DNA of 53,384 nucleotides, taken from an uncultured Eubacteriales bacterium. Lineage in GTDB: Bacteria > Bacillota > Clostridia > Oscillospirales > Oscillospiraceae. Shown here in pieces: positions 19,496 to 34,613 of this stretch. Under the pieces are notes generated by a model. It had not been told where the DNA came from. It was given only the letters and a program-made list of their open reading frames with translations, and did not search any database. Within the stretch, counting starts at the first letter, position 1. Each line of letters starts with the position of its first letter. Where the stretch lies: the NCBI GenBank assembly GCA_900317375.1, contig ONGJ01000004.1, positions 1-53,384 of the forward strand, read 5' to 3'. Position numbers and translations under genes: made by a program.

Positions 19496-19530
19496 CGCTC
19501 TCTCCTCCTTCGCGGCAGGCTGACGGGGAC

Positions 19531-20051: not shown

Positions 20052-20100
20052 ATGATAAACCTCTCTCCCGAAAAATCAAGGGAATGTGACAGAATGCCAC
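20052..20100 (-). promoter_or_regulatory. Distal SH3-gene promoter with GTGGC-ATTCT-GTCAC operator
   Basis: Minus strand: inverted repeat GTGGCATTCTGTCAC (20086-20100), 5 nt, CTTGAT as a -35-like element, 17 nt, and a -10 TATCAT at 20052-20057. The distance from repeat to -10 is 28 bp, as at 34565. It would add about 100 nt of leader to the SH3 transcript. Confidence 0.65.
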
Positions 20101-20151
20101 GGTTTTGTCTGCTTATTGATTATTGACGCCAGCTCCGGGACCATACGGAAA

Positions 20152-20177
20152 GCCGGCTCTGCAGCTGCAGAGCCGGC
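20152..20177 (-). terminator. Terminator of the symporter gene
   Basis: A perfect 26-bp palindrome (GCCGGCTCTGCAG and complement) lies 36 bp past the symporter stop codon and is followed by TTTCC on the minus strand. Confidence 0.65.
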
Positions 20178-20212
20178 CAGAAATTTCTGTGGGGTACCTG
20201 TCGGATGGCGGA

Positions 20213-21466
20213 TCAGGCCTTCTTTGCCTTCGCCTTGGCGGCATCCATCTGTGCTTCCCAGGTGTTGACGCAGACCGCGCAGGAAGCGTCGCCGACGACG
20301 TTCAGCGCGGTACGGCCCATATCGAACAGACGGTCGATACCGTAGATGATGCCGATATAGGTGGTCGGGACACCGACGGCATCCAGCACCATCGCCAGCA
20401 TGATCATGCCGGCGCCGGAGGTGCCCGCCGTGCCGATGGAGGCCAGCGTGGCCGTCACGACGATGGTGATCATCTGGACCAGCGTCAGGTCAATACCGAC
20501 GCACTTGGCCAGGAAGATCGCCGCAACGCACTGATAGATGGCGGTACCGTCCATGTTGATCGTGGCACCCAGCGGCAGCACGAAGGACGAAATTTCGGAG
20601 TGGACGCCCATCTCATCGCAGCACTCTTTGGTGACAGGCAGCGAAGCCACCGACGAGGTGGAGGTAAAGGCAAAGGCCGCTGCCGGGAAGATTTTCTTGA
20701 AGAAGGTCCCCGGTGACATGTTGGCAAAGACCTTGACCGACATGCTGTAGACCAGCACCACGTGAATGATATAGCCGATGTAGGCCGCCAGCAGGACCAG
20801 GCCCAGCGAGCCGAGGATTTTCGGACCCTGTGCCGCCACGACCCAGACCATCAGGGCGAACACGCCGTAAGGGGCCACTTCGAGGATGAAGCCCATGACC
20901 TTCTGGGTCACTTCATCGATCGATACGACCAGGTCTCCGGCCAGCTTTCCCTTATCGCCGGCGACCAGGATGCCGCAGCCGAAGAACAGCGCAATGACGA
21001 TGATCTGCAGCATGGACGAATTGGCCATCGGTGCAATGGCATTGTTCGGGAAGATGTTCACGATGGTGTCCATCAGGTTCGAGGATTTGGCCTCATAGGC
21101 CGCATCCTCTGCCAGCTGCAGCACCGGGAACGAACCCTTGAAGAGGGTGGCGACGACGAGGCCGATCACGCAGGCGATGGCCGTGGTCACCAGGAAGTAG
21201 ACGACGGTTTTCCAGCCGATCTTTCCGACCTTGCCGATATCGCCCATCGAGACGACGCCGTCCATGATGCTGAACAGGACCAGCGGAACAACGATGAACT
21301 TCAGCAGGTTGACAAAGATGTCACCGAAGGGCTTGATGTACTTTCCGGTAAAGGCGCCGGCGGCTTCCGCGCCCATGGCGACCCAGAAAATCGCGCCGAC
21401 GATGATGCCGAGCACAAGGCCGATCAGAATCTTTGCGCCGAGACCCAGTTTTTTCTTCTCTTTCAT
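20213..21466 (-). CDS. Dicarboxylate/amino acid:cation symporter (DAACS family)
   Basis: The 417-residue polytopic protein shows DAACS hallmarks: FVNLLKFIVVPLVLFSIMDG near residue 50, the re-entrant serine-rich motif AFTSTSSVASLPVT, then LPLGATINMDGTAIYQ and GTAGTSGAGMIMLAMVLDAVG. The family (GltP/SstT/DctA) takes up glutamate, aspartate, serine or dicarboxylates with Na+ or H+. GAAGGGAG precedes the ATG. An Asp/Glu racemase gene follows the same direction upstream, 149 bp away, suggesting an acidic amino acid substrate (inference). A TATAAT box lies at about 21523-21528 and a small hairpin in the 5' leader. Confidence 0.92.
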   Translation of the reverse strand: MKEKKKLGLGAKILIGLVLGIIVGAIFWVAMGAEAAGAFTGKYIKPFGDIFVNLLKFIVVPLVLFSIMDGVVSMGDIGKVGKIGWKTVVYFLVTTAIACVIGLVVATLFKGSFPVLQLAEDAAYEAKSSNLMDTIVNIFPNNAIAPMANSSMLQIIVIALFFGCGILVAGDKGKLAGDLVVSIDEVTQKVMGFILEVAPYGVFALMVWVVAAQGPKILGSLGLVLLAAYIGYIIHVVLVYSMSVKVFANMSPGTFFKKIFPAAAFAFTSTSSVASLPVTKECCDEMGVHSEISSFVLPLGATINMDGTAIYQCVAAIFLAKCVGIDLTLVQMITIVVTATLASIGTAGTSGAGMIMLAMVLDAVGVPTTYIGIIYGIDRLFDMGRTALNVVGDASCAVCVNTWEAQMDAAKAKAKKA

Positions 21467-21614
21467 ACGTTATCTCCCTTCATCTTATTTTTGTTTCCGG
21501 TCTGTGCCGGAATTTATGATTTATTATACATCATTTTTGTCATAGCTGTTCTTCTTTTTTCTCATATTAAATCCGGTTTTTTTAATGGATGACAGGATGA
21601 TTACAACTGCATTT

Positions 21615-22319
21615 TTATTCCTTCACCTCATAGCCGCAGAAGCGGATCGCCGCTTTCGCCAGCTCGTCCGTCGGGTCCAGGAAAGGCCCCTCGGAAGGAA
21701 GCACGCCTGCCAGCACCGGAAGCTCCGTACAGCCCAGGATAAACAGATCGGCACCCTGCCCGCGCAGGGTATCCAGGATCGCATCCCAGCGCTCTTTTTC
21801 CGGCTCCATCGGCCGGGATGCCTTGACCACGCCGTAGATCAGATGCATGAGGCTTTTCTGTTCGCTTTCCCCGGGATGGATCCACCGGACGCCTTCCGCA
21901 TCCAGCGCCCGGTCATACAGGCCGCTCTGAACGGTACCGTCGGTCGCCAGAATGGCCGCCGTCTTTCCCGGGAAGCGTTCTCTGCAGACTGCGGCCGTGA
22001 TCCTCTGCATATCCAGGATCGGCAGTGCCGTCTGTTCCCGCAGCCGGGGAAGAAAATAGTGCGCCGTGTTGCAGGGCATGATGATGCAGTCCGCACCGCA
22101 GGCCTCCAGGTGGCGCAGCGCCGAGAGCATCTCGGGCACGGGATCCTCTCCGCCGTGCAGGATGGCGGCTGTCCGGTCCGGGATTGCCGCGTTCCCGTCG
22201 ATGTAGACGCGGATATGCTCGTTGTCCCGGTCCGCCCTGGTGTGTTCGATGATTTTGCGGTACAGGTCTGCCGTTGCCAAAGGACCCATACCGCCGAGAA
22301 TGCCGATCGTTTTTTTCAT
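21615..22319 (-). CDS. Aspartate/glutamate racemase family protein
   Basis: The 234-residue product has both catalytic cysteine motifs of the PLP-independent racemase family: IIMPCNTAHYF (about residue 79) and FILGCTELPVL (about residue 192). It also has the N-terminal IGILGGMGPLATADLY typical of aspartate racemase rather than MurI. It should interconvert L- and D-aspartate or a close analogue. Its neighbour in the direction of transcription is a probable acidic amino acid symporter, which fits shared substrate use. A GGGGAAGAG ribosome site precedes the ATG. Confidence 0.9.
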   Translation of the reverse strand: MKKTIGILGGMGPLATADLYRKIIEHTRADRDNEHIRVYIDGNAAIPDRTAAILHGGEDPVPEMLSALRHLEACGADCIIMPCNTAHYFLPRLREQTALPILDMQRITAAVCRERFPGKTAAILATDGTVQSGLYDRALDAEGVRWIHPGESEQKSLMHLIYGVVKASRPMEPEKERWDAILDTLRGQGADLFILGCTELPVLAGVLPSEGPFLDPTDELAKAAIRFCGYEVKE

Positions 22320-22465
22320 TTTCTCTTCCCCTGCCGCTGCCTGCTTCCGAGCAGGCGGTGATCAAGTCTGTACAGGCAGAATTATACCTGCCGGGCACCC
22401 TGCTGTCAACGCGGAAAGGCCGAAAACCGCGTGCCGGCAAAGGCAGCGGCCCGCTCCGATTTGGG

Positions 22466-22494
22466 TTGACAGGAGGGCGCGGAAACGCTAAAAT
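22466..22494 (+). promoter_or_regulatory. Promoter for idi and the HD-GYP gene
   Basis: TTGACA, a 17-bp spacer and TAAAAT on the + strand, about 60 bp upstream of the idi start. The -35 is a perfect consensus. Confidence 0.75.
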
Positions 22495-22553
22495 CTGGTT
22501 ATTTCAAAGCGAGGACGTTTTGCCTGTGAGAGCAGGCGGAAAGGAGGCGGCGA

Positions 22554-23099
22554 ATGGATACCGGGAACGAACTGATCCTGGTCGACCTGGACGACCGGGA
22601 GATCGGCCGCGGAGAGAAGATGGATGTGCACAGGAAGGGCCTGCTGCACAGGGCTTTCTCGGTTTTTCTGTTCGACGGCGACCGCCTGCTGATCCAGCGG
22701 CGCGCCGCAGGGAAATATCACAGCGCGGGACTGTGGGCGAACACCTGCTGTTCCCATCCGCGTGTCGGTGAAACGCTTCAGGAGGCTGCCGCGAAACGGC
22801 TTCTGCTGGAATGCGGCATTGAGAAGGTGACGCTGCGGGAGGCCGGCCGCTTCGTATATCGGGCCGTGTTTTCAAACGGACTGACGGAATATGAGTCGGA
22901 CCATGTGCTTGTCGGCGAATACGCGGGCAGCTTTGAGGCAAACCCCGAAGAGGCCTCCGCGCTCTGCTATGTGCCCGTTGACGCGCTGAAAGTGCAGATG
23001 CTGACGGCGCCGGAGCGCTATGCGGTATGGTTTTTCACCGCGCTCGGCATGGCAGAAGCCTTTCGGACGGCGGCTTTGCGCATCCCGCCGGCCGAATGA
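22554..23099 (+). CDS. idi: Isopentenyl-diphosphate delta-isomerase, type 1 (Nudix)
   Basis: The 181-residue protein follows the type-1 IDI pattern: LLHRAFSVFLFDGDRLLIQR, WANTCCSHPRVGE with the catalytic cysteine, the Nudix-like AAAKRLLLECGI, and ESDHVLVGEYAG with the second acidic site. It interconverts isopentenyl and dimethylallyl diphosphate in isoprenoid synthesis using metal ions. AAAGGAGG precedes the ATG at 22554. It is followed after 18 bp by the HD-GYP gene in the same transcript, though no functional link between the two is known. Confidence 0.95.
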   Translation: MDTGNELILVDLDDREIGRGEKMDVHRKGLLHRAFSVFLFDGDRLLIQRRAAGKYHSAGLWANTCCSHPRVGETLQEAAAKRLLLECGIEKVTLREAGRFVYRAVFSNGLTEYESDHVLVGEYAGSFEANPEEASALCYVPVDALKVQMLTAPERYAVWFFTALGMAEAFRTAALRIPPAE

Positions 23100-23117
23100 T
23101 AAGGGAAAGGACAGCTT

Positions 23118-24311
23118 ATGACGGAACGTATCTCGCTGAAAAACATCTTTCTGTATATGGGGCTGACGGCCGGACAGTATCGGGCTGTGCGGGCGCGGGT
23201 TGCCGAGAAGATCCGACGGAACCTGAGCTGGATGTCGGTGCTCATGTGTATCGTGCCGCTGATCATGATTCCGCTGGACAGGCTCTTTTTTCATCAGGGC
23301 TTTTCTGTCCTGTTTCTCACGGTCGCCGCGGCGGGCCTGATCATCCGCCTGGTCATCGAGAGAGTCAAACGGCCGAATGCCGTTCTGGTTCTGGCCTATT
23401 TTGTGCTGGCCTTCCTGTTTTCCTTCGCCATCATCGTGACTGCGTCCCCGGCAAACGCCGGCGTCCCCGCGACGAGCATCATTGTATACCTGGTGCTGCT
23501 GCCGATGCTGGTCCCGGATGTTGGGTGGAGGATGCTGATCCTGGTCACAAGCTTTGAAGGCCTGTTCCTGCTTGTCTCTCACAGCATGAAGAGCCTGCCG
23601 GTCTTTCAGGCGGATCTCAGCAACTCGATGGTGCTGGTGCCCTTCGGTTTTTTTGTGTTTCTGCTGGTGTCCAACGCGCTGGCAAAACAGATCTGGGAGT
23701 CTGCACAGCTTCAGAAAATAGAAAGCCACATGATCATTTCCCTGACGGACATCATCGAGGGCCGGGATGCCTATACCGGAGATCATGTGCGCAATACGGA
23801 GGATTATGTCATTCAGATCCTGCGCCAGCTTCGAAAAACCCCCAAATACAAAACGGTCATCACCGAACCCTATGTCAAACGGGTCGTCAGAAGCGCCCCG
23901 CTGCATGACCTCGGAAAGATCCGGGTTCCCGATGCGATCCTGAACAAGCCCGGCCGCCTGACGCCGGAGGAGTTTGCCATTATGAAGACCCACACCACCT
24001 ACGGGGCGGAGCTGGTCGAAGAGGTTCTGTTCGGGCTGGGTGATCCGGAGCTGACCGAAGTCGCCGTGAACATCGCCCGGGACCATCACGAGCGGATGGA
24101 CGGGAAGGGTTATCCGGCAGGGAAAAAGGGGGAGGATATCCCTCTTGAGGCCAGGATCATGGCGGTGGCGGACGTCTATGACGCGCTGGTGTCCGAACGG
24201 GTATACAAAAAAGCGCTCCCGAAAGAGGAAGCGCTTCGCATTATGAAGGAGGGCCGCGGGACCCAGTTCGACCCGGATGTGCTGGACGCCTTTCTGGAGG
24301 TCGTGGAGTAA
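23118..24311 (+). CDS. Membrane HD-GYP phosphodiesterase
   Basis: The 397-residue protein has about five or six membrane segments in its first 190 residues. A C-terminal HD-GYP domain follows (about 205-395): SLTDIIEGRDAYTGDHVRNT, the metal-binding HDLGKIRVPDAILNKPG, and HHERMDGKGYPAG, the GYP motif. Such enzymes linearise c-di-GMP to pGpG or GMP. The gene ends 11 bp from the 3' end of a convergent diguanylate cyclase gene, so opposing c-di-GMP activities sit tail to tail. The sensory input is probably through the membrane segments. Confidence 0.92.
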   Translation: MTERISLKNIFLYMGLTAGQYRAVRARVAEKIRRNLSWMSVLMCIVPLIMIPLDRLFFHQGFSVLFLTVAAAGLIIRLVIERVKRPNAVLVLAYFVLAFLFSFAIIVTASPANAGVPATSIIVYLVLLPMLVPDVGWRMLILVTSFEGLFLLVSHSMKSLPVFQADLSNSMVLVPFGFFVFLLVSNALAKQIWESAQLQKIESHMIISLTDIIEGRDAYTGDHVRNTEDYVIQILRQLRKTPKYKTVITEPYVKRVVRSAPLHDLGKIRVPDAILNKPGRLTPEEFAIMKTHTTYGAELVEEVLFGLGDPELTEVAVNIARDHHERMDGKGYPAGKKGEDIPLEARIMAVADVYDALVSERVYKKALPKEEALRIMKEGRGTQFDPDVLDAFLEVVE

Positions 24312-24322
24312 AAGGCGCGCGT

Positions 24323-25486
24323 TCAGCGCGATCTGCGTCTGTCCCGGCCGGATCTTCGGTAATAATCCGCCTTGACGGCATACATGGCCAGATCCGATTC
24401 GTGGATCAGCTCTTCCGCGTTGAAGCCGGGGTTGTTTCTCTCCAGGGCAAAGCCGACGGACATGCTCAGCTTCTGTCCGAAGGAGCCCTGCCAGCGCCCG
24501 GCCAGGTATTCCAGCCTGTTGATGACCGCATAGGCGCGGACCGTGTCGGTATCCGGTGAAAGCACGACAAATTCGTCGCCCCCGGTGCGGAAGCACTGCG
24601 CCTGGCTGCCCTTAAACACCTCGGTGATGCATTCCGCCGCCCCTTTGATCAGTTCGTCGCCGGCCTCGTGACCCAGCTCGTCGTTGATCTGCTTGAGGCC
24701 GTTGATGTCGATGGTAAAGGCGCCGTAATCCTCCGGCAGGCGTTCGGACTCGGCATAGATCTTCCGTGCCTGGGAGTAGGCATAGCGGTTGAGCAGGCCG
24801 GTCAGCGGATCCAGCTGCATCTGCAGCGCCTGCCGGGCAATGGTGTCGTCTGAGTCAACCTGGGCAAACTCGGCATAGTGGATGAACATCAGCGCCGCGC
24901 CGATCGTCATGCCAAGATAGGCAGTACGGACGTCCGGGAGCAGCTCCTGCAGCGCGACTGCGGCCAGAACGACCGGCATGACGGCATAAAGGGCCGTGCG
25001 GTTCCGCTGTCTGTGGGACCGTCCGTAAAGCGCAAACTGCAGGATCATCATGGCAAAGATGGCCAGGCACAGCAGGATGTAAACGGGATAGAGCGGCCCG
25101 TGGACATAGCGGTTCTGTGCGTCAATGGTGATCATCCAGTTTCCCGTCAGGGCGATCAGCTGCAGAACGGTGTTGACCGCGAGGATGGCCATCATGGCCT
25201 TCTCCCAGCGGTTGCGGAGACCCATCAGCGCCATCAGGGCGCCGCCTGCCATGGGGGTGAGAATATAATCGGCACACTTGACCGCCCTCAGCAGCCAGTG
25301 CGGGGCAGTCTCCCTGCCGCTGAGCTGGACGCCGATCCACTCTGCCAGCGCGGCCGCCGCCACCAGGGCATAGGTCAGCCAGAGCAGGCGTCTGTCCTCC
25401 TCGGAAAGGTGGCTGTTCATCCGGACAAGAACGGACAGCGCGCCCAGGGAGAGCCAGCAGAGGATCATAATCGATGTATAGTACAA
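24323..25486 (-). CDS. Seven-transmembrane-type diguanylate cyclase (GGDEF)
   Basis: The 387-residue product has a hydrophobic N-terminal half with about seven membrane segments (1-215) and a C-terminal GGDEF domain with DPLTGLLNRYAYSQAR, GQ-type linker features and FRTGGDEFVVLSPD. It should make c-di-GMP. The best start is TTG at 25486 with GAGGAT upstream; an ATG six codons later is an alternative. The site before GGDEF reads KGSQAQCFRT, with no RxxD inhibitory site. Its promoter carries a perfect GTGAC-ATTCT-GTCAC inverted repeat shared with the SH3, zinc-ribbon and thioredoxin genes of this window. Confidence 0.9.
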   Translation of the reverse strand: MYYTSIMILCWLSLGALSVLVRMNSHLSEEDRRLLWLTYALVAAAALAEWIGVQLSGRETAPHWLLRAVKCADYILTPMAGGALMALMGLRNRWEKAMMAILAVNTVLQLIALTGNWMITIDAQNRYVHGPLYPVYILLCLAIFAMMILQFALYGRSHRQRNRTALYAVMPVVLAAVALQELLPDVRTAYLGMTIGAALMFIHYAEFAQVDSDDTIARQALQMQLDPLTGLLNRYAYSQARKIYAESERLPEDYGAFTIDINGLKQINDELGHEAGDELIKGAAECITEVFKGSQAQCFRTGGDEFVVLSPDTDTVRAYAVINRLEYLAGRWQGSFGQKLSMSVGFALERNNPGFNAEELIHESDLAMYAVKADYYRRSGRDRRRSR

Positions 25487-25557
25487 AACAGTATCCTCGC
25501 TCTGTTTTATCTGTTTCTGTCTGCTGCTCCGGCCAGGCCGGAGGCGATTGACGCGAT

Positions 25558-25607
25558 ATTATAATCATCCGAAGGTAAAAATGCAAGGCAGGGTGACAGA
25601 ATGTCAC
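25558..25607 (-). promoter_or_regulatory. Diguanylate cyclase promoter with perfect operator repeat
   Basis: Minus strand: GTGACATTCTGTCAC (25593-25607), then TTGCAT, a 17-bp spacer and TATAAT (25558-25563). Repeat-to-minus-10 distance is 29 bp. The repeat forms the tip of the upstream gene's terminator hairpin, so one DNA segment serves as terminator and putative operator. Confidence 0.75.
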
Positions 25608-25617
25608 CCTGCCTTGC
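25583..25617 (-). terminator. Terminator of the ABC exporter gene, overlapping an operator
   Basis: A perfect 15-bp stem (GCAAGGCAGGGTGAC and complement) with a 5-nt loop, followed by ATTTTTAC on the minus strand, lies 25 bp beyond the exporter stop codon. Confidence 0.85.
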
Positions 25618-25642
25618 GGTTTTCTGCAGGCAGACGGTTCCT

Positions 25643-27478
25643 CTACGGCTTCCCGCTTTCCAGGATCCTGCGGAACTGGGTCTCGTAGAGCTCGCGGTAG
25701 GTGCCGCCCAGGGCGAGCAGCTCTTCGTGGCTGCCCTGCTCGGCAATCACCCCGTCCTTCAGGACCAGGATCCGGTCCGCCTTCAGGACGGTGGACAGGC
25801 GGTGGGCGATGACGATGCTGGTTCTGCCCTCCATCAGGGCTTCCAATGCCTCCTGAATCGCGTTTTCGGTGATGGAGTCCAGCGCCGAGGTTGCCTCGTC
25901 CAGAATCAGGATCTTCGGGTCCTTCAGGATGACGCGGGCAATGCTCAGGCGCTGTTTTTCGCCGCCGGAGAGCTTCAGGCCCCGGTTTCCCACCAGGGTT
26001 TCGTATCCCTCCGGCTGAGAGGCGATGAAGTCGTTCAGGTTGGCGATGAAGCAGGCCGCGTCCAATTCCTCCTGCGTGGCATTCTCTTTGGCATAGAGCA
26101 GGTTCTCGCGGATGCTGCCGTTGAAGAGATAGCTGTCCTGCGTCACCACGCCGATGCAGGAGCGCAGATAGGAGAGGTCAAAGTCGCGCACGTCGGTCCC
26201 GGCGATTTTCACGCTGCCCCGAAGCACGTCATACAGGCGCGGAATCAGATTCACGACCGTCGACTTGCCCGAGCCGCTGGGCCCGACGACGGCGTACATC
26301 TTCCCGGCCGGCACCGTAAAGTCGATATCCTTCAGCAGCGGCTTTTCGGGGTCATAGCTGAAGGCAACATGATCATAGACGATATCGCCGTCCGAGACGT
26401 CCGGCTTTTTTCCGTTCTCGGGCGAGACAATCGGGTTTTCCATGTCAAAGTAGTCAAAGATGCGGGTAAACAGAGCCAGCGACCGGGTGAAGTCCACATG
26501 GATGTTCAGGAGCGACTCCACCGGCCGGTAGAGCCGGTTGACCAGCGAGACCGTCGCCGTGACGGTGCCGACGGTCAGCCCGGGATCTGCGTGCCGGATG
26601 ATGATCCATCCGCCGGCAAAGTAGATCAGCAGCGGTCCCAGCTGGGTAAACAGGCCCATCACCACCCGGAACCAGCGGCCGCTCTGCTGCTCTTTCAGGT
26701 TCAGGCGGGTGACCTCTTCGTTGACCTTGACAAAGCGCTCGTATTCGCGCTTCTCGCGGGTAAAGAGCTTCACCAGCAGGGAACCGGAGACCGACAGAGT
26801 CTCGTTGATGAGCTGGTTCATCTCATCGCTCTTCGCCTGGCTGTCCTTCAGCAGCTGATAGCGCTTTTTCCCGACCCGCTTCGTCGGCAGGATCAGCAGC
26901 GGCAGCACCACAATGCCCACCAGCGCCAGCTGCCAGCTCATCGTAAACAGAGCCACCAGTGTCGTGACCACCGTCGCGATGTTTGACACAATGCTGCTCA
27001 TCGTGCCGGAGATGACCGAGCTCACACCGCTGATGTCGGTGTTCATGCGGGTGATGATGTCGCCCTGTTTCTCCGAGGTGAAGAAGGCATGGGGCATGTG
27101 CTGCAGATGGTCGTACATCTGGTTTTTCATGTCAAAGATGATCCGCTGCGAGATCCAGGCGTTGATGTAGCTCTCCAGCACCGAGATCACCTGGGAGGCC
27201 GACAGCGTGACAAAGGCCAGGACCAGCAGACGGATCAGCAGGGCCATGTTCTTCCCCACCAGGGCCTCGTCGACGATGCGGCCGGTGATGATGCTGGGCA
27301 GCAGGCCCAGCACCGCCGAAACCAGGATCGTCACGAAAACCAGCAGGAGCTGGAGCCAGTACGGCCGGAGATAGGACAGGATCCGCCGGACCAGGGCACT
27401 GCTGAAGGTCGGCAGGTTTTTCTTTTCCTCTTCCGTCAGGAACCCCCTGGGGCCCAGACCGTGTACGGGAGGCGGCAT
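25643..27478 (-). CDS. ABC exporter, fused membrane and ATPase domains
   Basis: The 611-residue half-transporter has six membrane segments (about 35-330) and an ATPase domain (about 365-605). The ATPase has Walker A VGPSGSGKST, Q-loop VTQDSYLF, signature LSGGEKQRLS, Walker B ILILDEATSALD and H-loop IAHRLST. It resembles MsbA/LmrA-type lipid or multidrug exporters. No C39 peptidase domain precedes the membrane part, so it is not by itself a double-glycine leader processing exporter. It would function as a homodimer or pair with another half-transporter. Upstream sequence shows only a weak ribosome site. Confidence 0.92.
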   Translation of the reverse strand: MPPPVHGLGPRGFLTEEEKKNLPTFSSALVRRILSYLRPYWLQLLLVFVTILVSAVLGLLPSIITGRIVDEALVGKNMALLIRLLVLAFVTLSASQVISVLESYINAWISQRIIFDMKNQMYDHLQHMPHAFFTSEKQGDIITRMNTDISGVSSVISGTMSSIVSNIATVVTTLVALFTMSWQLALVGIVVLPLLILPTKRVGKKRYQLLKDSQAKSDEMNQLINETLSVSGSLLVKLFTREKREYERFVKVNEEVTRLNLKEQQSGRWFRVVMGLFTQLGPLLIYFAGGWIIIRHADPGLTVGTVTATVSLVNRLYRPVESLLNIHVDFTRSLALFTRIFDYFDMENPIVSPENGKKPDVSDGDIVYDHVAFSYDPEKPLLKDIDFTVPAGKMYAVVGPSGSGKSTVVNLIPRLYDVLRGSVKIAGTDVRDFDLSYLRSCIGVVTQDSYLFNGSIRENLLYAKENATQEELDAACFIANLNDFIASQPEGYETLVGNRGLKLSGGEKQRLSIARVILKDPKILILDEATSALDSITENAIQEALEALMEGRTSIVIAHRLSTVLKADRILVLKDGVIAEQGSHEELLALGGTYRELYETQFRRILESGKP

Positions 27479-27601
27479 TTTCCCACAGCCTTTCTGTCTG
27501 AAACTGGCTCCATTTTATGGGAAAACGCGCTTCAAATCAAGCAGAAGCTGTGAACGGATGCCGTGCCCGGGTCCTTTTGGGAATTTTGTATTATTTACCG
27601 A

Positions 27602-27630
27602 TTGACGGAAGCATGCAGATTCGTTATACT
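27602..27630 (+). promoter_or_regulatory. Promoter for glgP
   Basis: TTGACG, a 17-bp spacer and TATACT on the + strand, ending 44 bp before the ATG at 27674. Confidence 0.7.
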
Positions 27631-27673
27631 TACCGCGTTATTCTGTATATTTCTCTTAGGGAGGTTACTTCAT

Positions 27674-30076
27674 ATGCTTGGTCAGATTTCCCGCGACGAA
27701 ATGCGCAGCGCCATTGCCGACAAGCTGAGCGCGCATTTCAGTGTTTCGCCCGACCACGCCACCGAGACGCAGGTTTTTCAGGCCTCGGCCATCGTCATCC
27801 GTGAGGTGATGAGCCGCTTCCTGGCCGTAGAAGATCCGCACCGGAAGGAGAAGGAAGTCCACTATATGTCCATGGAGTTTCTCATCGGCCGCAGCCTGAT
27901 GAAGAACGCCTTCAACCTCGGGATCGGTGATGCCCTGGTCGGCGCCCTGGAGGATCTCGGCTTCAGCGCTGCCGATATCTTTGAGGCGGAGCCGGATGCC
28001 GGGCTCGGAAACGGCGGTCTGGGCAGACTGGCCGCCTGCTACATGGACAGCATGGCTTCCCTCGGCATGGAGGGGGTCGGTTATTCCATCTGCTATGAGC
28101 TGGGCATTTTCAAGCAGCAGTTCCGGGACGGCAAGCAGACCGAGGTCGCCGACAACTGGCGCAGCGCGGCCGAGAGCTGGCTGATCCCCCGTTACGAGGA
28201 TATGGTCGAGGTCCGTTTCGGCGGGCAGATCGCCCAGCACTGGGACAACCACGGCCGCTACACCGCCGAGCACACCGGCTATACCTCCGTCCTGGCCGTG
28301 CCCCGCGACATGCTGATTGCCGGCTACGGCGAGAACAACGTCAACACCCTGCGTCTGTGGGATGCCAAGAGCCCGAACTCGCTGGACATGTACCTGTTCT
28401 CGGAGGGCGAATATGTCAAAAGTCTGGAACAGCGCACCATGGCAGAGGTCATCACCAAGGTGCTCTACCCCGCGGACGACCACATCGAGGGCAAGACCCT
28501 GCGTCTGAAGCAGCAGTATTTCTTCGTTTCGGCCAGCGCCCAGGACATCGTGCGCAAGCATATCCGCCTATGGGGCGATATCCGCAGTTTTCCCAAACAC
28601 CACATCATCCAGATCAACGACACCCACCCCACCATGATCATTCCCGAGCTGATGCGCATCTTCATGGACGTGCACGGCCTCGGCTGGGATGATGCCTGGG
28701 ATCTGGTCCGCAACAGCGTCGCCTATACCAACCACACCGTCATGTCCGAGGCCCTGGAAAAGTGGCCGCAGGACCTGGTTCAGCAGCTGCTGCCCCGCCT
28801 GTGGGAGATCATGTGCGAAATCAACCGCCGCTGGTGCGACTATCTGGTCCAGTCCTTCGGCTGGGACGAGCGCGTCGGCCGGAACCTGATCATCCGCGAC
28901 GGTCAGGTTCACATGGCGAACCTCTGCCTCTCCGCCTGCCGCATGGTCAACGGCGTTTCCCGTCTGCACGGCGAGATTCTCCGCAGCGATCTGTTCAAGG
29001 ACATCTGCTCGCTGCGTCCGGAGCGTTTTACCTATGTCACCAACGGCATCGACCATCGCCGGTGGCTTGCTCAGGTGAACCCGGGCCTGCACGGGCTGAT
29101 CTGTGAGCTTCTGGGCGGGGATGAGTACCTCACCAATGCCGACGCGCTGTCGGGTCTGCGCGCCTTTGAGACCGACCCCGAGGTCCTGCACCGCATCAAT
29201 GCCATCAAGCGGGAAAACCGCGCAAAGTTCACGCGTTTCCTGGCGTATAACCGCAGTGACATCGTCATCAACCCCGACGCCATGATGGATGTGCAGATCA
29301 AGCGTCTGCATGAATACAAGCGCCAGCTTCTGTGCGCCATGAGCATCGCGAGCCTGCAGATGAAGCTGCACGACAACCCCAATATGGATTTTGTCCCCCG
29401 CAGCTTTATCTTCGGCGCCAAGGCGGCCGCAGGCTACTACGTCGCCAAGCGCATCATCGAGCTTCTGCTCTCCATGCAGCGGGATATCAACGGCGACCCC
29501 GTCTGCAAGGACCGTCTGCAGATCTGCTTTGTGGAGAACTACCGCGTCTCGGCCGCCGAGGCTATTGTCCCGGCCGCTGACGTCTCGGAACAGATTTCCA
29601 CCGCCGGCAAGGAGGCATCCGGTACCGGCTGCATGAAGCTGATGATGAACGGGGCCGTGACCATCGGCACGCTGGACGGTGCCAATGTCGAAATGTACGA
29701 ACGTCTCGGCGACGAGAACATGTTCCTCTTCGGCCTGCATACCGACGAGATCGAATCCTGGCGGCACAACGGCTATGACCCGGCCTCCATCGCCAACAAC
29801 GACCCGGAGATCACGCGCATCATGCAGCGCTTCAGCCAGGGCTTCTCGGACGGCAAGAGCTATTCCGACCTGGTCTCCGGCCTCCTGTACGGCGGCGACC
29901 CCTATATGCTGATCGCCGACTACCGCGCCTATGCCGAGTGCCGGGACTGTCTCTACACCCGCATCTCGGATGAGAGCGAGCGCGCCCGTCTGGCGCTGGT
30001 GAACACCGCGGAAAGCGGCTTCTTCGCCGCCGACCGCGCCGTCCGCGAGTACGCCGAGCGCATCTGGAACCTGTAA
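27674..30076 (+). CDS. glgP: Glycogen/maltodextrin phosphorylase
   Basis: The 800-residue enzyme has the N-terminal catalytic motif YMSMEFLIGRSL, the EAEPDAGLGNGGLGRLAACY segment, and the PLP-binding lysine in EASGTGCMKLMMNGAVTIG near residue 655. The length matches bacterial glycogen phosphorylases. It releases glucose-1-phosphate from alpha-1,4-glucans with inorganic phosphate. The ATG at 27674 is chosen because AGGGAGGT lies about 9 bases upstream; the frame open before it has no ribosome site. It stands alone with a clear promoter and terminator. The usual SGTGNMKFM motif here reads SGTGCMKLM. Confidence 0.96.
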   Translation: MLGQISRDEMRSAIADKLSAHFSVSPDHATETQVFQASAIVIREVMSRFLAVEDPHRKEKEVHYMSMEFLIGRSLMKNAFNLGIGDALVGALEDLGFSAADIFEAEPDAGLGNGGLGRLAACYMDSMASLGMEGVGYSICYELGIFKQQFRDGKQTEVADNWRSAAESWLIPRYEDMVEVRFGGQIAQHWDNHGRYTAEHTGYTSVLAVPRDMLIAGYGENNVNTLRLWDAKSPNSLDMYLFSEGEYVKSLEQRTMAEVITKVLYPADDHIEGKTLRLKQQYFFVSASAQDIVRKHIRLWGDIRSFPKHHIIQINDTHPTMIIPELMRIFMDVHGLGWDDAWDLVRNSVAYTNHTVMSEALEKWPQDLVQQLLPRLWEIMCEINRRWCDYLVQSFGWDERVGRNLIIRDGQVHMANLCLSACRMVNGVSRLHGEILRSDLFKDICSLRPERFTYVTNGIDHRRWLAQVNPGLHGLICELLGGDEYLTNADALSGLRAFETDPEVLHRINAIKRENRAKFTRFLAYNRSDIVINPDAMMDVQIKRLHEYKRQLLCAMSIASLQMKLHDNPNMDFVPRSFIFGAKAAAGYYVAKRIIELLLSMQRDINGDPVCKDRLQICFVENYRVSAAEAIVPAADVSEQISTAGKEASGTGCMKLMMNGAVTIGTLDGANVEMYERLGDENMFLFGLHTDEIESWRHNGYDPASIANNDPEITRIMQRFSQGFSDGKSYSDLVSGLLYGGDPYMLIADYRAYAECRDCLYTRISDESERARLALVNTAESGFFAADRAVREYAERIWNL

Positions 30077-30083
30077 ACAGCGC

Positions 30084-30113
30084 ATTGCCTTCCTGCCGCG
30101 GCAGGAAGGCAAT
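30084..30113 (+). terminator. Terminator of glgP
   Basis: A perfect 14-bp stem (ATTGCCTTCCTGCC and complement) with a 2-nt loop followed by TTTTATA, 8 bp after the stop codon. Confidence 0.9.
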
Positions 30114-30171
30114 TTTTATATCCGGTCTGGGCAACCCGTTTCTCTGCCCTTGACCTGAGAGGATGTGTCCT

Positions 30172-30996
30172 GTGTATAGGAAGAAATTCAGCCTGGGTGT
30201 CTGCCAGCTGCGGACAGAGACCGACTATGAGGCCACCATGGAGAAGGCCGCCGCCATGATCCGCGAGGCGGCTTCGGCCGGGGCCGATGTGCTTGTCCTG
30301 CCCGAGATGTTCCCGTGCCCTTATGCGACAGATTACTTTCATGCGTTCGCATCCCGCGGTCATGAAGAGACCTGCCGCAGGCTTTCCTCCTGGGCGGGGG
30401 AGAACCGGCTGCTCCTGGTCGGCGGTTCGGTCCCGGAGGTCGACGGGGACCGGCTCTACAACAGCTGCTTTGTCTACGGACCTGACGGCGGGCTTCTCGC
30501 GCGGCACCGAAAGGTCCACCTGTTCGACGTGGATCTGCCGGGCATGTGCTTTCATGAGTCGCACACCTTTACGCCGGGCTCGGAAATCACGGTTTTTGAC
30601 ACGCCTTACGGGCGGATGGGCGTCGCCGTCTGTTTCGATGTCCGCTTTCCCGAGATGTTTCGGGCCATGGCCCGGCGCGGATGTGAGCTGATCTGCCTGC
30701 CCGCGCAGTTCAACATGACGACGGGGCCTGCCCACTGGGAGGCGACCATGCGCATGCGGGCCGTCGACAACGAGCTGTTCTTTGTCGCCGCCGCGGCCGC
30801 CCGGTATGAGGGCTTTTCCTATGAATGCTGGGGCCATTCCCTGATCCTGGACCCCTTCGGAAGCAAGCTGGCCGAGGCAGACGAAACCGAGCAGCTGATC
30901 CTGGCCGAGCTGGACCTGAACCGGATCGACGAAGTCCGTGCCCAGCTTCCGACCTTCCTGCATCTGCGGGAGGATCTGTACACGGTGGCCGACTGA
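30172..30996 (+). CDS. Nitrilase-family carbon-nitrogen hydrolase (omega-amidase-like)
   Basis: The 274-residue protein shows the Glu-Lys-Cys triad of the nitrilase superfamily: VLPEMFPCPY (Glu), RHRKVHLFDVDLPG (Lys) and GVAVCFDVRFPEMFR (Cys). The last motif and the FDVD segment match omega-amidase/NIT2-type enzymes, which hydrolyse 2-oxoglutaramate or 2-oxosuccinamate. The GTG at 30172 is preferred because GAGAGG lies 9 bases upstream; the ATG at 30163 abuts that ribosome site. A possible role is cleaning up transamination by-products. It is monocistronic, with a terminator at 31014-31049. Confidence 0.9.
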   Translation: MYRKKFSLGVCQLRTETDYEATMEKAAAMIREAASAGADVLVLPEMFPCPYATDYFHAFASRGHEETCRRLSSWAGENRLLLVGGSVPEVDGDRLYNSCFVYGPDGGLLARHRKVHLFDVDLPGMCFHESHTFTPGSEITVFDTPYGRMGVAVCFDVRFPEMFRAMARRGCELICLPAQFNMTTGPAHWEATMRMRAVDNELFFVAAAAARYEGFSYECWGHSLILDPFGSKLAEADETEQLILAELDLNRIDEVRAQLPTFLHLREDLYTVAD

Positions 30997-31013
30997 ACAG
31001 GCAGAGACAGCGA

Positions 31014-31049
31014 GGAGCTGCAGCAAAATGGAAGATTTTGCGCAGCTCC
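31014..31049 (+). terminator. Terminator of the nitrilase-family gene
   Basis: An imperfect stem of about 15 bp (GGAGCTGcaGCAAAAT pairing with ATTTTGCgCAGCTCC) is followed by TTTTCTGC, 17 bp past the stop. Confidence 0.8.
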
Positions 31050-31115
31050 TTTTCTGCATCCGGCTTGCTTAAATCCATCTCCTCTGCAATTCGATCCCGC
31101 TTGTTTTTACCACAA

Positions 31116-31159
31116 ACAAGAAGCCGAGGCCACCCTTTTGGGTCGTCTCGACTTCTTGT
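31116..31159 (+). terminator. Second hairpin with T tract in the intergenic region
   Basis: ACAAGAAG...CGAG...ACCC pairs imperfectly with GGGT...CTCG...CTTCTTGT around a TTTT loop, followed by TCTTTTCGG. It is a likely backup or formerly used terminator; no gene of its own is apparent. Confidence 0.55.
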
Positions 31160-31192
31160 TCTTTTCGGGCTGTTTTGCTGCAGCCCCTCGGC

Positions 31193-31329
31193 ACCTCTTG
31201 CTCAGCGCAGGATGGTGGGATAGATGGTCAGCTTCTGTTCTTCTGAAAAGAGCAATCCCCCCGCCGAAAGGCGGGGGGTTCGATACCTCTTGCTCAGCGC
31301 AGGATGGTGGGATAGATGGTCAGCTTCTG
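31193..31329. repeat. 45-bp direct repeat duplicating the 3' end of the LysM gene
   Basis: Identical 45-bp copies at 31193-31237 and 31285-31329, period 92 bp. The right copy contains the stop and last codons of the LysM peptide gene (reading ...TIYPTILR-stop); the left copy lies beyond the gene's terminator hairpin. It looks like a recent tandem duplication or a trace of a lost second peptide gene. Confidence 0.95.
31257..31278 (-). terminator. Hairpin terminator of the LysM peptide gene
   Basis: CCCCCCGCC and GGCGGGGGG form a 9-bp stem with a GAAA-type loop, 16 bp past the stop. On the minus strand ATTGCTCTTTT follows. It closely resembles the hairpin behind the SH3 peptide gene. Confidence 0.75.
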
Positions 31330-31545
31330 GTTGATGTAGATGAGGTCGGGGTTCTTGATGTTGTTCCACTGGCAGATCTGCTGTACCGTGACACCGAAGC
31401 GGATCGCGATGCCCGAGAGGACGTCGCCGCCGACGACCGTGTAAACGATGTACTGACCGTAGTTCACATAGGAACCCTTCGCGTACTGCTGCCAGGGGCC
31501 ATAGCCGCCGGAAACTTCGTTGAGTTCTTTTTCGTTGAGTGCCAT
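31294..31545 (-). CDS. Double-glycine-leader peptide with LysM domain
   Basis: The 83-residue protein begins at the ATG at 31545 (MALNEKEL), with AAGGAG upstream; the longer reading from 31566 overlaps that site. Residues 1-14 form a bacteriocin-type leader, [12 protein letters not shown], nearly matching the leader of the SH3 protein at 19.7 kb. The 69-residue mature part contains one LysM domain ([18 protein letters not shown], then the [15 protein letters not shown] region), a peptidoglycan-binding fold. Family knowledge predicts cleavage after GG and export by a C39-type ABC transporter, which is not in this window. It may be a wall-anchored effector, signal or structural peptide; function is unknown. 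Confidence 0.82.
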
Positions 31546-31609
31546 TTTTCTTTTCTCCTTTTTCATTTAATTATTTTTATTTTTTCCTGTTTTTTGCTTT
31601 CGTGAGTTC

Positions 31610-31643
31610 ATTGTAGCACAGCTTCTGTCACAGAAGTGTCACA
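31610..31643 (-). promoter_or_regulatory. LysM gene promoter with CTTCTGTGA element
   Basis: Minus strand: TGTGACACTTCTGTGACA, then an extended -10 TGC-TACAAT (31610-31615). From the first TGTG to the end of the -10 is 34 bp, exactly as in the proximal SH3 promoter. The region also contains CTTCTG-TCA-CAGAAG, a perfect palindrome. No consensus -35 is present. Confidence 0.65.
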
Positions 31644-31681
31644 TACCGTATGCACGAGCAAATAAACTTTTCTATTCAGTC

Positions 31682-34282
31682 TCAGGCACCGCAGTACCAG
31701 CAGGAGCTGCCGCCGGTATAGGAGCCGCAGACCGGGCAATACATGCTGCTGTCATCATAGCCTTCATCATAGCCAACATCGTAGCCGCCGTCATAGCCCA
31801 CGTCGTAGCCGCCGTCGTAGCCGCCGTCGTAACCGCCGTCGTAACCGCCGTCGTAACCGCCGTCGTAGCCGCCGTCGTAGCCGCCGTCATAGCCGCCGTC
31901 GTAGCCGCCGTTATAGCCGCCGTCATAGCCGCCGTCGTAGCCGCCATCATAGCCGCTGCCGAAGCCGCCGCGCGGGGTGCCGCAGCCGCCGCAGTAATCG
32001 GTTCCGTTATTGACGGTTCCGCACTGCACACATACCCAAGAATCATCGGCATTGGGATCATACCCATAGGGCTCTTCGTTGACCGGATTACCCGGCTCGT
32101 AACCGCAGCTCCAGCACTTATCGGTGTCCTGGTTCCCCTCACCGCAGACCGGGCAGGTCCAGCCGACGAAATCGACAGCGTCAGCGGTAGAGCCAGTGCT
32201 AGTGTCAGCGGTAGAGCTAGCGCCAGCGTCAGCGAACTCGTTCACGAAACCGCAGCTCCAGCATTTGTCGCCGCTCTGGTTGCTCTCACCGCAGACCGGG
32301 CAGATCCAGCCAAGGGGCCCTGAAATAATGCCGTCGTTCAGACCCTTCTGGTGGCCGCAGTTCCAGCACTCGTCACCGCGAACCCAGGAGCCGCAGGACG
32401 GGCAGGTCCAGCCCTGAATATCGGAAACGACACCGTTGCTGCTGCCCTTCTCGTAACCGCAGCGCCAGCATTTGTCTGTGTCCTGGTTCCCCTCGCCGCA
32501 GATCGGGCAGGTCCAGCCGTTGAAACCGGGATCAACATTATCGCCGCGCCCAGTCTTGTAGCCGCAGTTCCAGCATTCGTCTCCGCGCGCCCAGGAGCCG
32601 CACTTCGGGCAGACCCAGCCCTGTATCGTATCGCGATAGGGGATGACATAGCCGACAATGCTTGTAACCGGAGTCTGAACCCTCTGTGTGGAAAGGCCGT
32701 AATGATAATTATTGGTGTAGGTGACAGGCACGTTCTGCCAGACATTCAGCGGCGCCCGGCAGGAGCGCGCCAGCATGCCGCGATAGCTGAAGACAGCATA
32801 GACATTGACGCCGTTCATGCCTGCGTTGACCTGGGCGATCGAAAGATTCGTGGTCGTGTCGCCGGTAACGGCGCCGCCGTAGCGCTGCATGAACTCAGCC
32901 GCGCTCATGTCGGCGCTGCCGTCGGCGGAGAGGAAGCGCCAGACCACCGTGTCATAGCAGTTGGCAAACGCAGTAAAGGAAGCGGTTTCGCCGACGCTCA
33001 GGGTCAGACGGTAGGGGTTCTTGTTAACGAATACGCCGCCAGCATTCTGTGCAAAATTGTTGGAATAAGGACTCGGATCGGGGTTGTGCCGGCCTTCAAA
33101 GACGGCATAGCTGTCGACAAAGCGTTCAAGCGTCACGGCGTCCGCGGCCTTGAACCAGTCAAAGCAGGTCTGTGACCGGGGCATACCGGCAAAGGTGGTG
33201 TCACCGATGTTGATAAACTGCTCCATCGTGAGAGACGCCTTGTTTCTGCCGGTGCAGGTGATGTCCAGAGGGCCGCTGCCCTGGCTGATGGACACACACA
33301 GGGCCATATTCCCGTCATCGAAGGCGCAGGCCTTCATGGTCATGCCGTTTATAGCGGTCGTCTGGCCCGCCTCGACAGGAATCGCCTCCGTCTTGTCGCC
33401 GTTTGCTTTATAGATGGTGCTGATGGGATTCGATTCCACAAACATGTAGTAATAGCTGTTGGTGGCGGCATCATAATAGGTGTCGACCGCATCCTTGTGA
33501 AGGTTGACGGTAAAGCTGTCCTTGATCATCTCTTCTCCGCCTTCAACAAGGGGAGCCGGAACCTCGGGCAGATTGCAGGAGACAAGGGTGCTGCCGTCCT
33601 TGCTTACCTCCCAGGCCTTGAACTTGGTGTCTCTGCCGGGGAGCTGTCTGGTCGCCAGCAACTCCAGGAAGCCGTTGTGGTCCAGATCCGTGACGGCGTA
33701 AAACCAGAGTCCCTGGCTGTCGTCCTGCCTGCACTCGCTGAACCTGGAGGCGATAAAGGTAAGCTGCTGAGAATAAACACTGGCGATCTGCGCCGGAGTC
33801 ACCTGAACCGTGCTGCTCGCGGCCGTGGCAGTCGTGGGCGTGTTTGTGACTGTGACATATCCAACGCTCCCGAAATACTGGGTGCCCTGATTATAGCCGC
33901 AGTTCCAGCATTTATCGGTGTCCTGATTCCCCTCGCCGCAGACCGGGCAGGTCCAGCCATAGAAGCCGGTAACGGTGCCGCCGGCAGTTCCTCCGTACAC
34001 GTAACCGCAGTTCCAGCATTTGTCGCCGCTCTGGTTGCTCTCACCGCAGGTCGGGCAGATCCAGCCAAGGGGGCCTGAAATGACACCGTCGGATCCGTAC
34101 GGATAGCTACAGTTCCAGCACTCATCGCCGCGGTAGCTGACGCCGCAGTTCGGGCAGATCTGGGTATAAATGTCGTAGACGTCATCGACATCGTCCGCAT
34201 GTGCATGGGTATGCGGACCTGCCCCGATGTTCATCGAGAACAGCAGGACCAGACACAATGTAATGGCAAGTAGTTTCTTCAT
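31682..34282 (-). CDS. Secreted protein with ten zinc ribbons and a GYDG-repeat tract
   Basis: The 866-residue protein has a signal peptide (MKKLLAITLCLVLLFSMNIG, cleavage near AHA-DD). Three CxxC...CWxC zinc ribbons follow, near residues 43-125. A middle region (about 165-560) includes an EF-hand-like loop DLDHNGFLEL and an Ig-like beta segment. Five more ribbons lie at about 565-730, then CVQCGTVNNGTDYCGGCG, 17 GYDG-type tetrapeptides (777-844) and a final ribbon CPVCGSYTGGSSCWYCG. Two ribbon types alternate (NQ[DS]..DKCW and RGDECWNCG). Ribbons of this kind are usually cytoplasmic; a secreted array is unusual. The promoter carries the shared inverted repeat, and it diverges from two secreted thioredoxin genes. 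Function unknown; a zinc-binding envelope scaffold is possible. Confidence 0.85.
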   Translation of the reverse strand: MKKLLAITLCLVLLFSMNIGAGPHTHAHADDVDDVYDIYTQICPNCGVSYRGDECWNCSYPYGSDGVISGPLGWICPTCGESNQSGDKCWNCGYVYGGTAGGTVTGFYGWTCPVCGEGNQDTDKCWNCGYNQGTQYFGSVGYVTVTNTPTTATAASSTVQVTPAQIASVYSQQLTFIASRFSECRQDDSQGLWFYAVTDLDHNGFLELLATRQLPGRDTKFKAWEVSKDGSTLVSCNLPEVPAPLVEGGEEMIKDSFTVNLHKDAVDTYYDAATNSYYYMFVESNPISTIYKANGDKTEAIPVEAGQTTAINGMTMKACAFDDGNMALCVSISQGSGPLDITCTGRNKASLTMEQFINIGDTTFAGMPRSQTCFDWFKAADAVTLERFVDSYAVFEGRHNPDPSPYSNNFAQNAGGVFVNKNPYRLTLSVGETASFTAFANCYDTVVWRFLSADGSADMSAAEFMQRYGGAVTGDTTTNLSIAQVNAGMNGVNVYAVFSYRGMLARSCRAPLNVWQNVPVTYTNNYHYGLSTQRVQTPVTSIVGYVIPYRDTIQGWVCPKCGSWARGDECWNCGYKTGRGDNVDPGFNGWTCPICGEGNQDTDKCWRCGYEKGSSNGVVSDIQGWTCPSCGSWVRGDECWNCGHQKGLNDGIISGPLGWICPVCGESNQSGDKCWSCGFVNEFADAGASSTADTSTGSTADAVDFVGWTCPVCGEGNQDTDKCWSCGYEPGNPVNEEPYGYDPNADDSWVCVQCGTVNNGTDYCGGCGTPRGGFGSGYDGGYDGGYDGGYNGGYDGGYDGGYDGGYDGGYDGGYDGGYDGGYDGGYDVGYDGGYDVGYDEGYDDSSMYCPVCGSYTGGSSCWYCGA
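31751..31954 (-). repeat. Seventeen 12-bp tandem repeats encoding GYDG
   Basis: Seventeen consecutive 12-bp units encode GYDG or variants (one GYNG, two GYDV, one GYDE, one GYDD). The variants cluster at the C-terminal end, with near-identical units in the middle, the pattern expected from slippage expansion. Confidence 0.95.
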
Positions 34283-34362
34283 GTTCTCCTCCTGATTTAT
34301 AAAATTTTTGACCTGTCAATATTTTGGGGGTTATACCAAATATTGATAGAATTTCACAAGAT

Positions 34363-34412
34363 ATTGTAGCATACAGCGTTTTTTCTTTTCAAGTCATGTG
34401 GCAGAAAGTCAC
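34363..34412 (-). promoter_or_regulatory. Zinc-ribbon gene promoter with GTGAC-TTTCT-GCCAC operator
   Basis: Minus strand: GTGACTTTCTGCCAC (34398-34412), then CTTGAA and an extended -10 TGC-TACAAT (34363-34368). The repeat ends 29 bp before the -10. The gene starts about 80 bp further on. Confidence 0.7.
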
Positions 34413-34432
34413 ATCCATGTCTGTAATTCCCT

Positions 34433-34461
34433 TTGAACAAAATCTCTTCTTCGGTTATAGT
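34433..34461 (+). promoter_or_regulatory. Additional rightward promoter before a 12-codon ORF
   Basis: TTGAAC, 17-bp spacer, TATAGT: a near-consensus promoter, 39 bp upstream of the short reading frame at 34501. Confidence 0.55.
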
Positions 34462-34500
34462 GGCGATAATGAACCGGCACGGTATAAAGGAGAGATCAAC

Positions 34501-34539
34501 ATGGGCGCTACTTTCGCAAAGACGCCGCACAAGGCATGA
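34501..34539 (+). CDS. Possible 12-residue peptide gene
   Basis: The frame encodes MGATFAKTPHKA and stops. It has an excellent ribosome site (AAAGGAGAG, 6 nt before the ATG) and the promoter at 34433-34461. It could be a leader peptide controlling the downstream thioredoxin genes, or a chance frame. No family is recognised. Confidence 0.25.
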   Translation: MGATFAKTPHKA

Positions 34540-34564
34540 TTTTCTTTTCCGGAATGATTTGGAC

Positions 34565-34613
34565 GTGACTTTCTGTCACATCATCTTGAATGACAAAAGA
34601 AAGCTGATACAAT
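34565..34613 (+). promoter_or_regulatory. Thioredoxin operon promoter with perfect GTGAC-TTTCT-GTCAC operator
   Basis: Plus strand: perfect inverted repeat GTGACTTTCTGTCAC (34565-34579), 5 nt, CTTGAA, and -10 TACAAT (34608-34613) preceded by TGA. Repeat-to-minus-10 distance is 28 bp. The ATG lies about 105 bp downstream. Confidence 0.75.

Follow-up and report, generated by a model that had tools for sequence, protein, structure and literature searches.

Here we describe a putative regulatory system in 53,384 nucleotides (nt) of DNA from an uncultured Eubacteriales bacterium of the Oscillospiraceae (contig ONGJ01000004.1), a stretch that is called the window in its whole length and that holds the four sites discussed below together with their neighbouring genes. 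On its minus strand lies a unit (19926-17607) in which the gene of an 87-amino-acid SH3-like peptide is followed by that of a response regulator with a helix-turn-helix (HTH) and a receiver domain, termed XRE-REC, and then by a LytS-type kinase gene (Table 1). Both domains of the regulator are clearly recognized (HTH_3, PF01381, E 1.5e-16; receiver, PF00072, E 1.6e-17), and the receiver residues D84, D129, T157 and K177, which are the phospho-acceptor and other catalytic positions of such domains, are invariant among 15 relatives. A relative of the kinase is found near XRE-REC in 18 of 20 neighbourhoods (tblastn, E 1e-8), the exceptions being loci L063 and L074. The SH3-like peptide reaches 24.4 bits against the Bacterial SH3 domain, just below the Pfam cut-off of 27.

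Table 1. Features of the window: proposed operators, the hairpin around one of them, and the genes concerned (positions are those of the stretch)
Feature	Coordinates	Strand	Properties
LytS-type membrane histidine kinase	17607-18899	-	His_kinase and HATPase_c domains; overlaps XRE-REC gene; proposed partner
XRE-REC response regulator	18896-19504	-	HTH_3 residues 12-63, Response_reg 79-187; likely ATG 19495; proposed operator binder
SH3 double-glycine peptide, 87 amino acids	19663-19926	-	Leader LNDQELEHVTGG; predicted target of operator 1
Proposed operator 1	20086-20100	-	GTGGCATTCTGTCAC; CTTG 20077-20080 after 5 nt; -10 TATCAT 20052-20057; promoter of SH3 double-glycine peptide
Membrane diguanylate cyclase (GGDEF)	24323-25486	-	Predicted target of operator 2; sensor related to that of the kinase
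Perfect hairpin enclosing operator 2	25582-25618	both	Terminator-like on both strands; behind ABC transporter gene
Proposed operator 2	25593-25607	-	GTGACATTCTGTCAC; CTTG 25584-25587 after 5 nt; -10 TATAAT 25558-25563; promoter of GGDEF gene
Secreted zinc-ribbon (DZR) repeat protein	31682-34282	-	Predicted target of operator 3
Proposed operator 3	34398-34412	-	GTGACTTTCTGCCAC; CTTG 34390-34393 after 4 nt; -10 TACAAT 34363-34368; promoter of secreted zinc-ribbon protein
Proposed operator 4	34565-34579	+	GTGACTTTCTGTCAC; CTTG 34585-34588 after 5 nt; -10 TACAAT 34608-34613; promoter of secreted thioredoxin-like protein
Secreted AhpC/TSA (TlpA/ResA-like) thioredoxin protein	34720-36099	+	Predicted target of operator 4
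Thioredoxin-like domain fused to VanY-type carboxypeptidase	36135-38168	+	Next gene after its shorter paralog 34720-36099

Four sites of the form GTGRCWTTCTGYCAC stand one in each of four promoters, and those claimed by the original prediction were all recovered to the base in coordinates, strands and distances: the gap to CTTG (claimed as 4-5 nt) is 5, 5, 4 and 5 nt in window order, and that to the -10 hexamer (claimed as 28-29 nt) is 28, 29, 29 and 28 nt. With the hexamer set at -12 to -7, the counted gaps place the site at about -41 to -55 or -42 to -56, which agrees with the predicted placement around -41 to -55. The copies described as perfect palindromes are so over the 5-bp arms GTGAC/GTCAC; over 6 bp this is true only at 25593. 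A consensus promoter scan also listed three of the four promoters and missed the one at 25593, whose -35 hexamer TTGCAT matches 3 of 6 positions and whose -10 hexamer is TATAAT. The promoter of operator 1 probably also drives the XRE-REC and kinase genes behind the peptide gene, and the carboxypeptidase fusion probably shares an operon with the shorter paralog that precedes it.

Chance had been called very improbable, and this judgement is sustained by the shuffled controls: at no more than two mismatches the window holds four matches, all of them exact, and 100 dinucleotide shuffles give a mean of 0.65 and a maximum of 3, none reaching four. In the genome of 3.08 Mb the exact motif occurs in four places, all being these same promoters; a scatter through coding sequence, which had been named beforehand as speaking against the prediction, was thus not found. 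One-mismatch copies lie in five further places, compared with two for a backwards-pattern control, and promoter geometry is present in one of them (G000:C50:142465). This fifth, one-mismatch site (locus L065, position 9466) has its CTTG 8 nt off and a TACAAT, and on its far side the gene of a second double-glycine-leader peptide (MSELKKKGLVSLSDDDLESVAGG) begins.

Conservation in orthologous promoters, the lack of which had likewise been named as speaking against the prediction, points in the same direction. Among the 20 neighbourhoods compared, three kinases from other genomes (G037, G070 and G027) are 65-73% identical to that of the window, and in all three genomes sites of the window's type (called K-type, after the lysine at residue 39 of the regulator) recur with the same geometry. 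In G027 the SH3 peptide gene is preceded by such a site, as is a short reading frame lying upstream of XRE-REC; in G070 it precedes the SH3 peptide, whose gene diverges from XRE-REC; and in G037 it stands before a diguanylate cyclase and two more genes, none of which shares its contig with XRE-REC. The SH3 peptide itself has 17 copies in 15 of 102 genomes of the genus. Fifteen of these copies are readable, and the operator accompanies all three that lie on a contig with XRE-REC and none of the 12 that lie on other contigs or in genomes where no XRE-REC was detected. Matches at G009:C16, G070:C96:6022 and G037:C88 were dropped as support, since they are without promoter geometry. Likewise unused is the same 26-mer with another core, present in G008, G013, G023 and in one place each of G039 and G037:C143; its backwards control gives 6 places against 14.

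The original prediction had tied the activator site to the XRE-REC protein, and the comparison of the family supports this link, in that the motif would represent a subtype of a general element upstream of XRE-REC genes whose arm bases seem to track the recognition helix. After the removal of 24 duplicate proteins and of two genes with short upstream sequence, 159 XRE-REC genes left 133 upstream regions, and the omission of 7 redundant ones left 126 for an expectation-maximization motif search over 160 nt; the four operators of the window lie outside these regions. The search converges on GTTCCAGAATGTCAC, which reads GTGACATTCTGGAAC on the other strand and is a sister element of GTGACATTCTGTCAC with one arm changed. 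Its log-likelihood is 497 (62 seeds, 25 rounds), as against 39-50 in three shuffled sets (17 seeds, 20 rounds). Operator strings made up two of the 62 seeds, and three random seeds arrived at the same optimum. A fixed consensus, which had been read from a subset of the same regions, is found at no more than 3 mismatches in 57 of the 133, where 0.5 would be expected. A matrix score of at least 9 bits is attained by 89/133 regions and by 39/1330 shuffled ones, with 84 of the 89 in one orientation; the matrix having been trained on these very regions, this count is not independent, and the shuffled likelihoods and the fixed-consensus count are the fairer measures.

The geometry of the window promoters is also that of the family. 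In 80 named loci with 98 strong sites, CTTG follows the site after 3-9 nt in 62 cases and after 4-5 nt in 49, while on the reverse side the corresponding numbers are 10 and 2. Those 49 promoters present a C-rich spacer, CTTGAA and an AT-rich -10 box, the latter two being separated by 17 nt in 27, by 18 nt in 11 and by 16 nt in 5. Furthermore, the core is oriented: among 28 sites whose arms are symmetric and which have CTTG on a single side, xxTCx reads toward the promoter in 19, away from it in 0 and neither way in 9. Some of the loci counted had been retrieved with oriented patterns, and 4 sites flanked by CTTG on either side are excluded. For loci fetched by protein alone (L080-L159), 11 of 12 read toward the promoter, none away and one neither way. 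In the window as in the named loci, the operator keeps a fixed distance upstream of the -35 box, outside the core promoter. Divergent gene pairs often share a single site, the other side being usually the XRE-REC promoter. A separate 'class B' geometry (CAGAATG orientation, about 21 nt before CTTG) was given up: nine sites were flagged both ways and two distinct ones as B only, and the nine represent the far side of a divergent site of the common class A, so that class B was not kept apart.

The proposed link between protein and site can be followed to single residues. In a set of 88 protein-operator pairs (site of at least 11 bits, effective number 42; weak or absent sites and the window gene left out), permutation z over the scored protein columns peaks, for the arm bases b3b4 and b12b13, at the residue that precedes an invariant tryptophan, K39 in the window (11.0 and 11.8, with 8.3 and 8.2 for the runner-up columns), and for the outer bases b1 and b15 at the position of R34 in the window (14.6 and 13.8, followed by 7.0 and 10.4). 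In the AlphaFold model, whose mean predicted local distance difference test score (pLDDT) is 82, residues 34 and 39 lie within the helix 34-41, and residue 33, which ranks closely after 39 for the inner bases, lies just before it. Proteins with the window's lysine at 39 have G at arm base 3 in 9/9 operators and a full GTG arm in 8/9, and they occupy three or more separate positions in a tree from which the HTH was left out; arginine at 39 goes with TC at bases 3-4 in 54/68, and asparagine with GTTTC in 5/6. The regulator of the window, outside the set, combines lysine at 39 with GTG arms in all four of its proposed operators. Altogether, the recognition helix of the HTH and the operator arms seem to have changed together across the family.

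As to the distribution of the family, XRE-REC genes exist in 30/102 genomes of the genus, five of them in the window's own genome, and in 16/300 genomes of the family at a stricter cut-off. A named collection yielded 529 confirmed relatives, 80 of which, fetched by protein similarity (L080-L159), served as the named loci used downstream; rumen or gut samples are given as the source in several related records, and the window probably comes from a bacterium of this kind. The R-type site, that of proteins with arginine at 39, is present in 13 of the 30 genus genomes with XRE-REC and in 2 of the 72 without it (Fisher 9e-7). Two relatives, at L046 and L052, carry a TAG inside the matched stretch, reflecting either an assembly error or decay.

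With regard to the regulon, 99 proteins were collected from 124 listed sites, related genes being included and wrong-strand, near-duplicate and spurious cases, as well as XRE-REC itself, being left out by eye. GGDEF proteins are the commonest type (32/99), and the others comprise 7 amidohydrolases, 5 DUF1269, 3 SH3_3 and 3 BTAD proteins. At L196 and L133, a single site is shared by XRE-REC and a divergent gene, which may encode a BTAD-type activator. In the window, the membrane sensors of the kinase and of the diguanylate cyclase are related (profile comparison probability 92%, E 7e-7), which suggests that one type of signal may feed both. An HD-GYP phosphodiesterase gene (23118-24311, plus strand) converges on that of the cyclase and is preceded by none of the four sites. 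The genome has four C39 peptidases, and the SH3 double-glycine peptide would presumably be exported, with a conceivable feedback on the system.

Sites, geometry, conservation, linkage to XRE-REC genes and helix-operator covariation were all computed directly, and in their light it is quite likely that the four sites serve as operators for the XRE-REC regulator (18896-19504), which, together with its LytS-type kinase, would activate a small regulon and belong to a family of parallel systems. The membrane kinase would pass phosphate to the receiver domain, and an XRE-REC dimer would bind the oriented palindrome, centred at about -48 and directly upstream of the -35 box, thereby activating sigma-A-type promoters in a phosphorylation-dependent manner. 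The predicted regulon would comprise the regulator's own operon, SH3 double-glycine peptide included, the diguanylate cyclase and two proteins that are secreted or lie at the surface. Other members of what would be a large family of such parallel two-component systems in clostridia would each have their own arm sequence and a shared core, the arms being read by residues 33, 34 and 39. A broader proposal, to which we give an even chance, is that these XRE-REC/LytS systems, five in this genome, are insulated from one another: the ATTCT core would orient the dimer toward RNA polymerase, the arms read by 33/34/39 would keep paralogous regulons separate, and many systems would couple one sensor fold both to transcription, through the kinase, and to cyclic-di-GMP, through a GGDEF target with a related sensor.

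Several observations weigh against the proposal that XRE-REC activates from these sites. Its binding and activation are predictions drawn from sequence, as are phosphorylation, dimerisation and the nature of the signal, and a site at about -48 fits activation and other roles alike. The XRE-REC gene of the window does not have the site that directly precedes the gene in many relatives (L182, 1.9 bits), so it would be served from operator 1 only. Moreover, a site at 9 bits is missing from 44 of the 133 upstream regions; for seven of them (L082, L091, L093, L100, L103, L116 and L151), the gene preceding XRE-REC has a class A site in front of it. The geometry counts over the 98 sites include related loci. 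The K-type motif taken alone associates weakly with the regulator (4/30 genomes with XRE-REC, 1/72 others; p 0.025), its scan of the genus gives 11 places, compared with 5 for the backwards pattern, and promoter geometry is lacking at 3 of the 7 that lie outside the window. As for the covariation, G at arm base 3 also occurs in 12/68 R-type, 3/3 H-type and 2/2 G-type operators, TC is absent from 14/68 R-type operators, the raw information for the inner arm bases is slightly higher at residue 33 than at residue 39, and the permutations correct only partly for relatedness; among tree-corrected pairs, the 3 starred ones changed the same way in 2.0 and the other way in 0.2, too few for significance.

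The alternatives differ in how much of this evidence they can accommodate. Should XRE-REC bind the site and repress, or act as a switch, the link between protein and site would be retained, and the solved XRE HTH structures nearest to its own HTH do include SinR, a repressor; the -35 and -10 boxes of class A promoters are of fair quality, and in divergent arrangements a single site at about -64 from the XRE-REC promoter would have an ambiguous effect there. Nevertheless, the site stops 4-5 nt short of CTTG and overlaps neither the -35 nor the -10 box. A fixed, oriented spacing just upstream of the -35 box is typical of activators that contact RNA polymerase, and a non-overlapping site at such a distance counts against repression, which we consider rather unlikely. 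That a different transcription factor binds the site, XRE-REC genes being simply common targets, is more improbable still. The motif was indeed defined by position upstream of genes and not by binding, and two genomes have an R-type site with no detected XRE-REC, namely G019, where it looks coding, and G058, where it has class A geometry. An outside factor would, however, leave unexplained why the arm bases follow residues of the XRE-REC helix ahead of other columns, and why SH3 copies with the site are solely on contigs with XRE-REC.

The notion that the repeats are terminators, other hairpins or chance palindromes draws on operator 2, which sits within a strong hairpin (25582-25618; perfect 15-bp stem, RNA fold -32.6 kcal/mol, z -8.3), and on near-copies on contigs C88 and C120, which are in or beside hairpins and close to terminator-like sequence. 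Since the site at 25593 is part of that perfect stem, its palindrome alone carries no evidential weight. Yet, when all four sites were tested for a GC-rich stem followed by a T run, only this one lay in such a structure, operators 1, 3 and 4 being absent from the terminator-like list. Around 75 sites with TTG downstream, flank pairing is at most 0.61, little above the 0.43 of shuffled partners, and both the promoter geometry and the helix covariation speak against hairpins as well. The terminator or hairpin reading was accordingly rejected for the sites as a class and holds for 25593 only, and a longer palindrome extending into the -35 box was rejected too, the flanks pairing about as shuffled partners do; this explanation is already largely refuted, and the chance left to it is slight in the extreme.

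The activating XRE-REC system proposed here can be compared with several known ones. It resembles classical response regulators (OmpR/PhoB, NarL/LuxR, LytTR) by a receiver with conserved residues, an adjoining kinase gene, operators beside the -35 box and its own operon among the targets, and departs from them in having the HTH first and the receiver last, the HTH being of the XRE/Cro type. PhyR, in which an N-terminal sigma-like domain precedes a C-terminal receiver and which sequesters an anti-sigma factor, shares the position of the receiver and appears among the fold matches of XRE-REC at a root-mean-square deviation of 12-14 angstrom over the longer alignments; unlike in PhyR, the N-terminal part of XRE-REC is a DNA-binding HTH and not a sigma-like domain. 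By sequence, this HTH is akin to those of SinR and C.BclI, which are not known to have a receiver domain, SinR being mainly a repressor. The kinase of the window, in turn, has the domains of LytS/YehU-type kinases (PF06580), although its partner is XRE-REC, whereas the usual partners carry LytTR output domains.

No NCBIfam model among the 25 listed of 48 matched reaches its cut-off for XRE-REC, none of the 55 matched PDB sequences has its best stretch over both domains, and among the 50 fold matches listed none superposes over both. Among the open-access papers listed by literature searches, none appears, by title and abstract opening, to concern this type of regulator or its operator. Thus, while the two-component logic is known, the XRE-REC architecture and the operator family appear to be undescribed. 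To our knowledge, few regulons are known in gut and rumen bacteria. A seemingly undescribed type of regulator with 529 relatives would constitute a testable system, with regulons predictable from one helix and one 15-mer, and at the same time a set of naturally occurring paralogs from gut and rumen bacteria whose protein-DNA specificity seems to have shifted in step. Moreover, a two-component system directed to diguanylate cyclases could offer an entry to cyclic-di-GMP signalling in these bacteria.

Finally, two observations concern hairpins in their own right. The T run of the hairpin 25582-25618 overlaps the -35 region of the cyclase promoter, and hence a single DNA segment may be both the terminator of one transcript and the start of the next. 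At L190 (position 1501) and L191 (position 1487), in two genomes, a conserved palindrome, GAGACGTGACATTTTGTCACGTCTC, adjoins a terminator-like hairpin; it is probably not an operator, and a gene near it resembles a GspE/PilB N-terminal domain.

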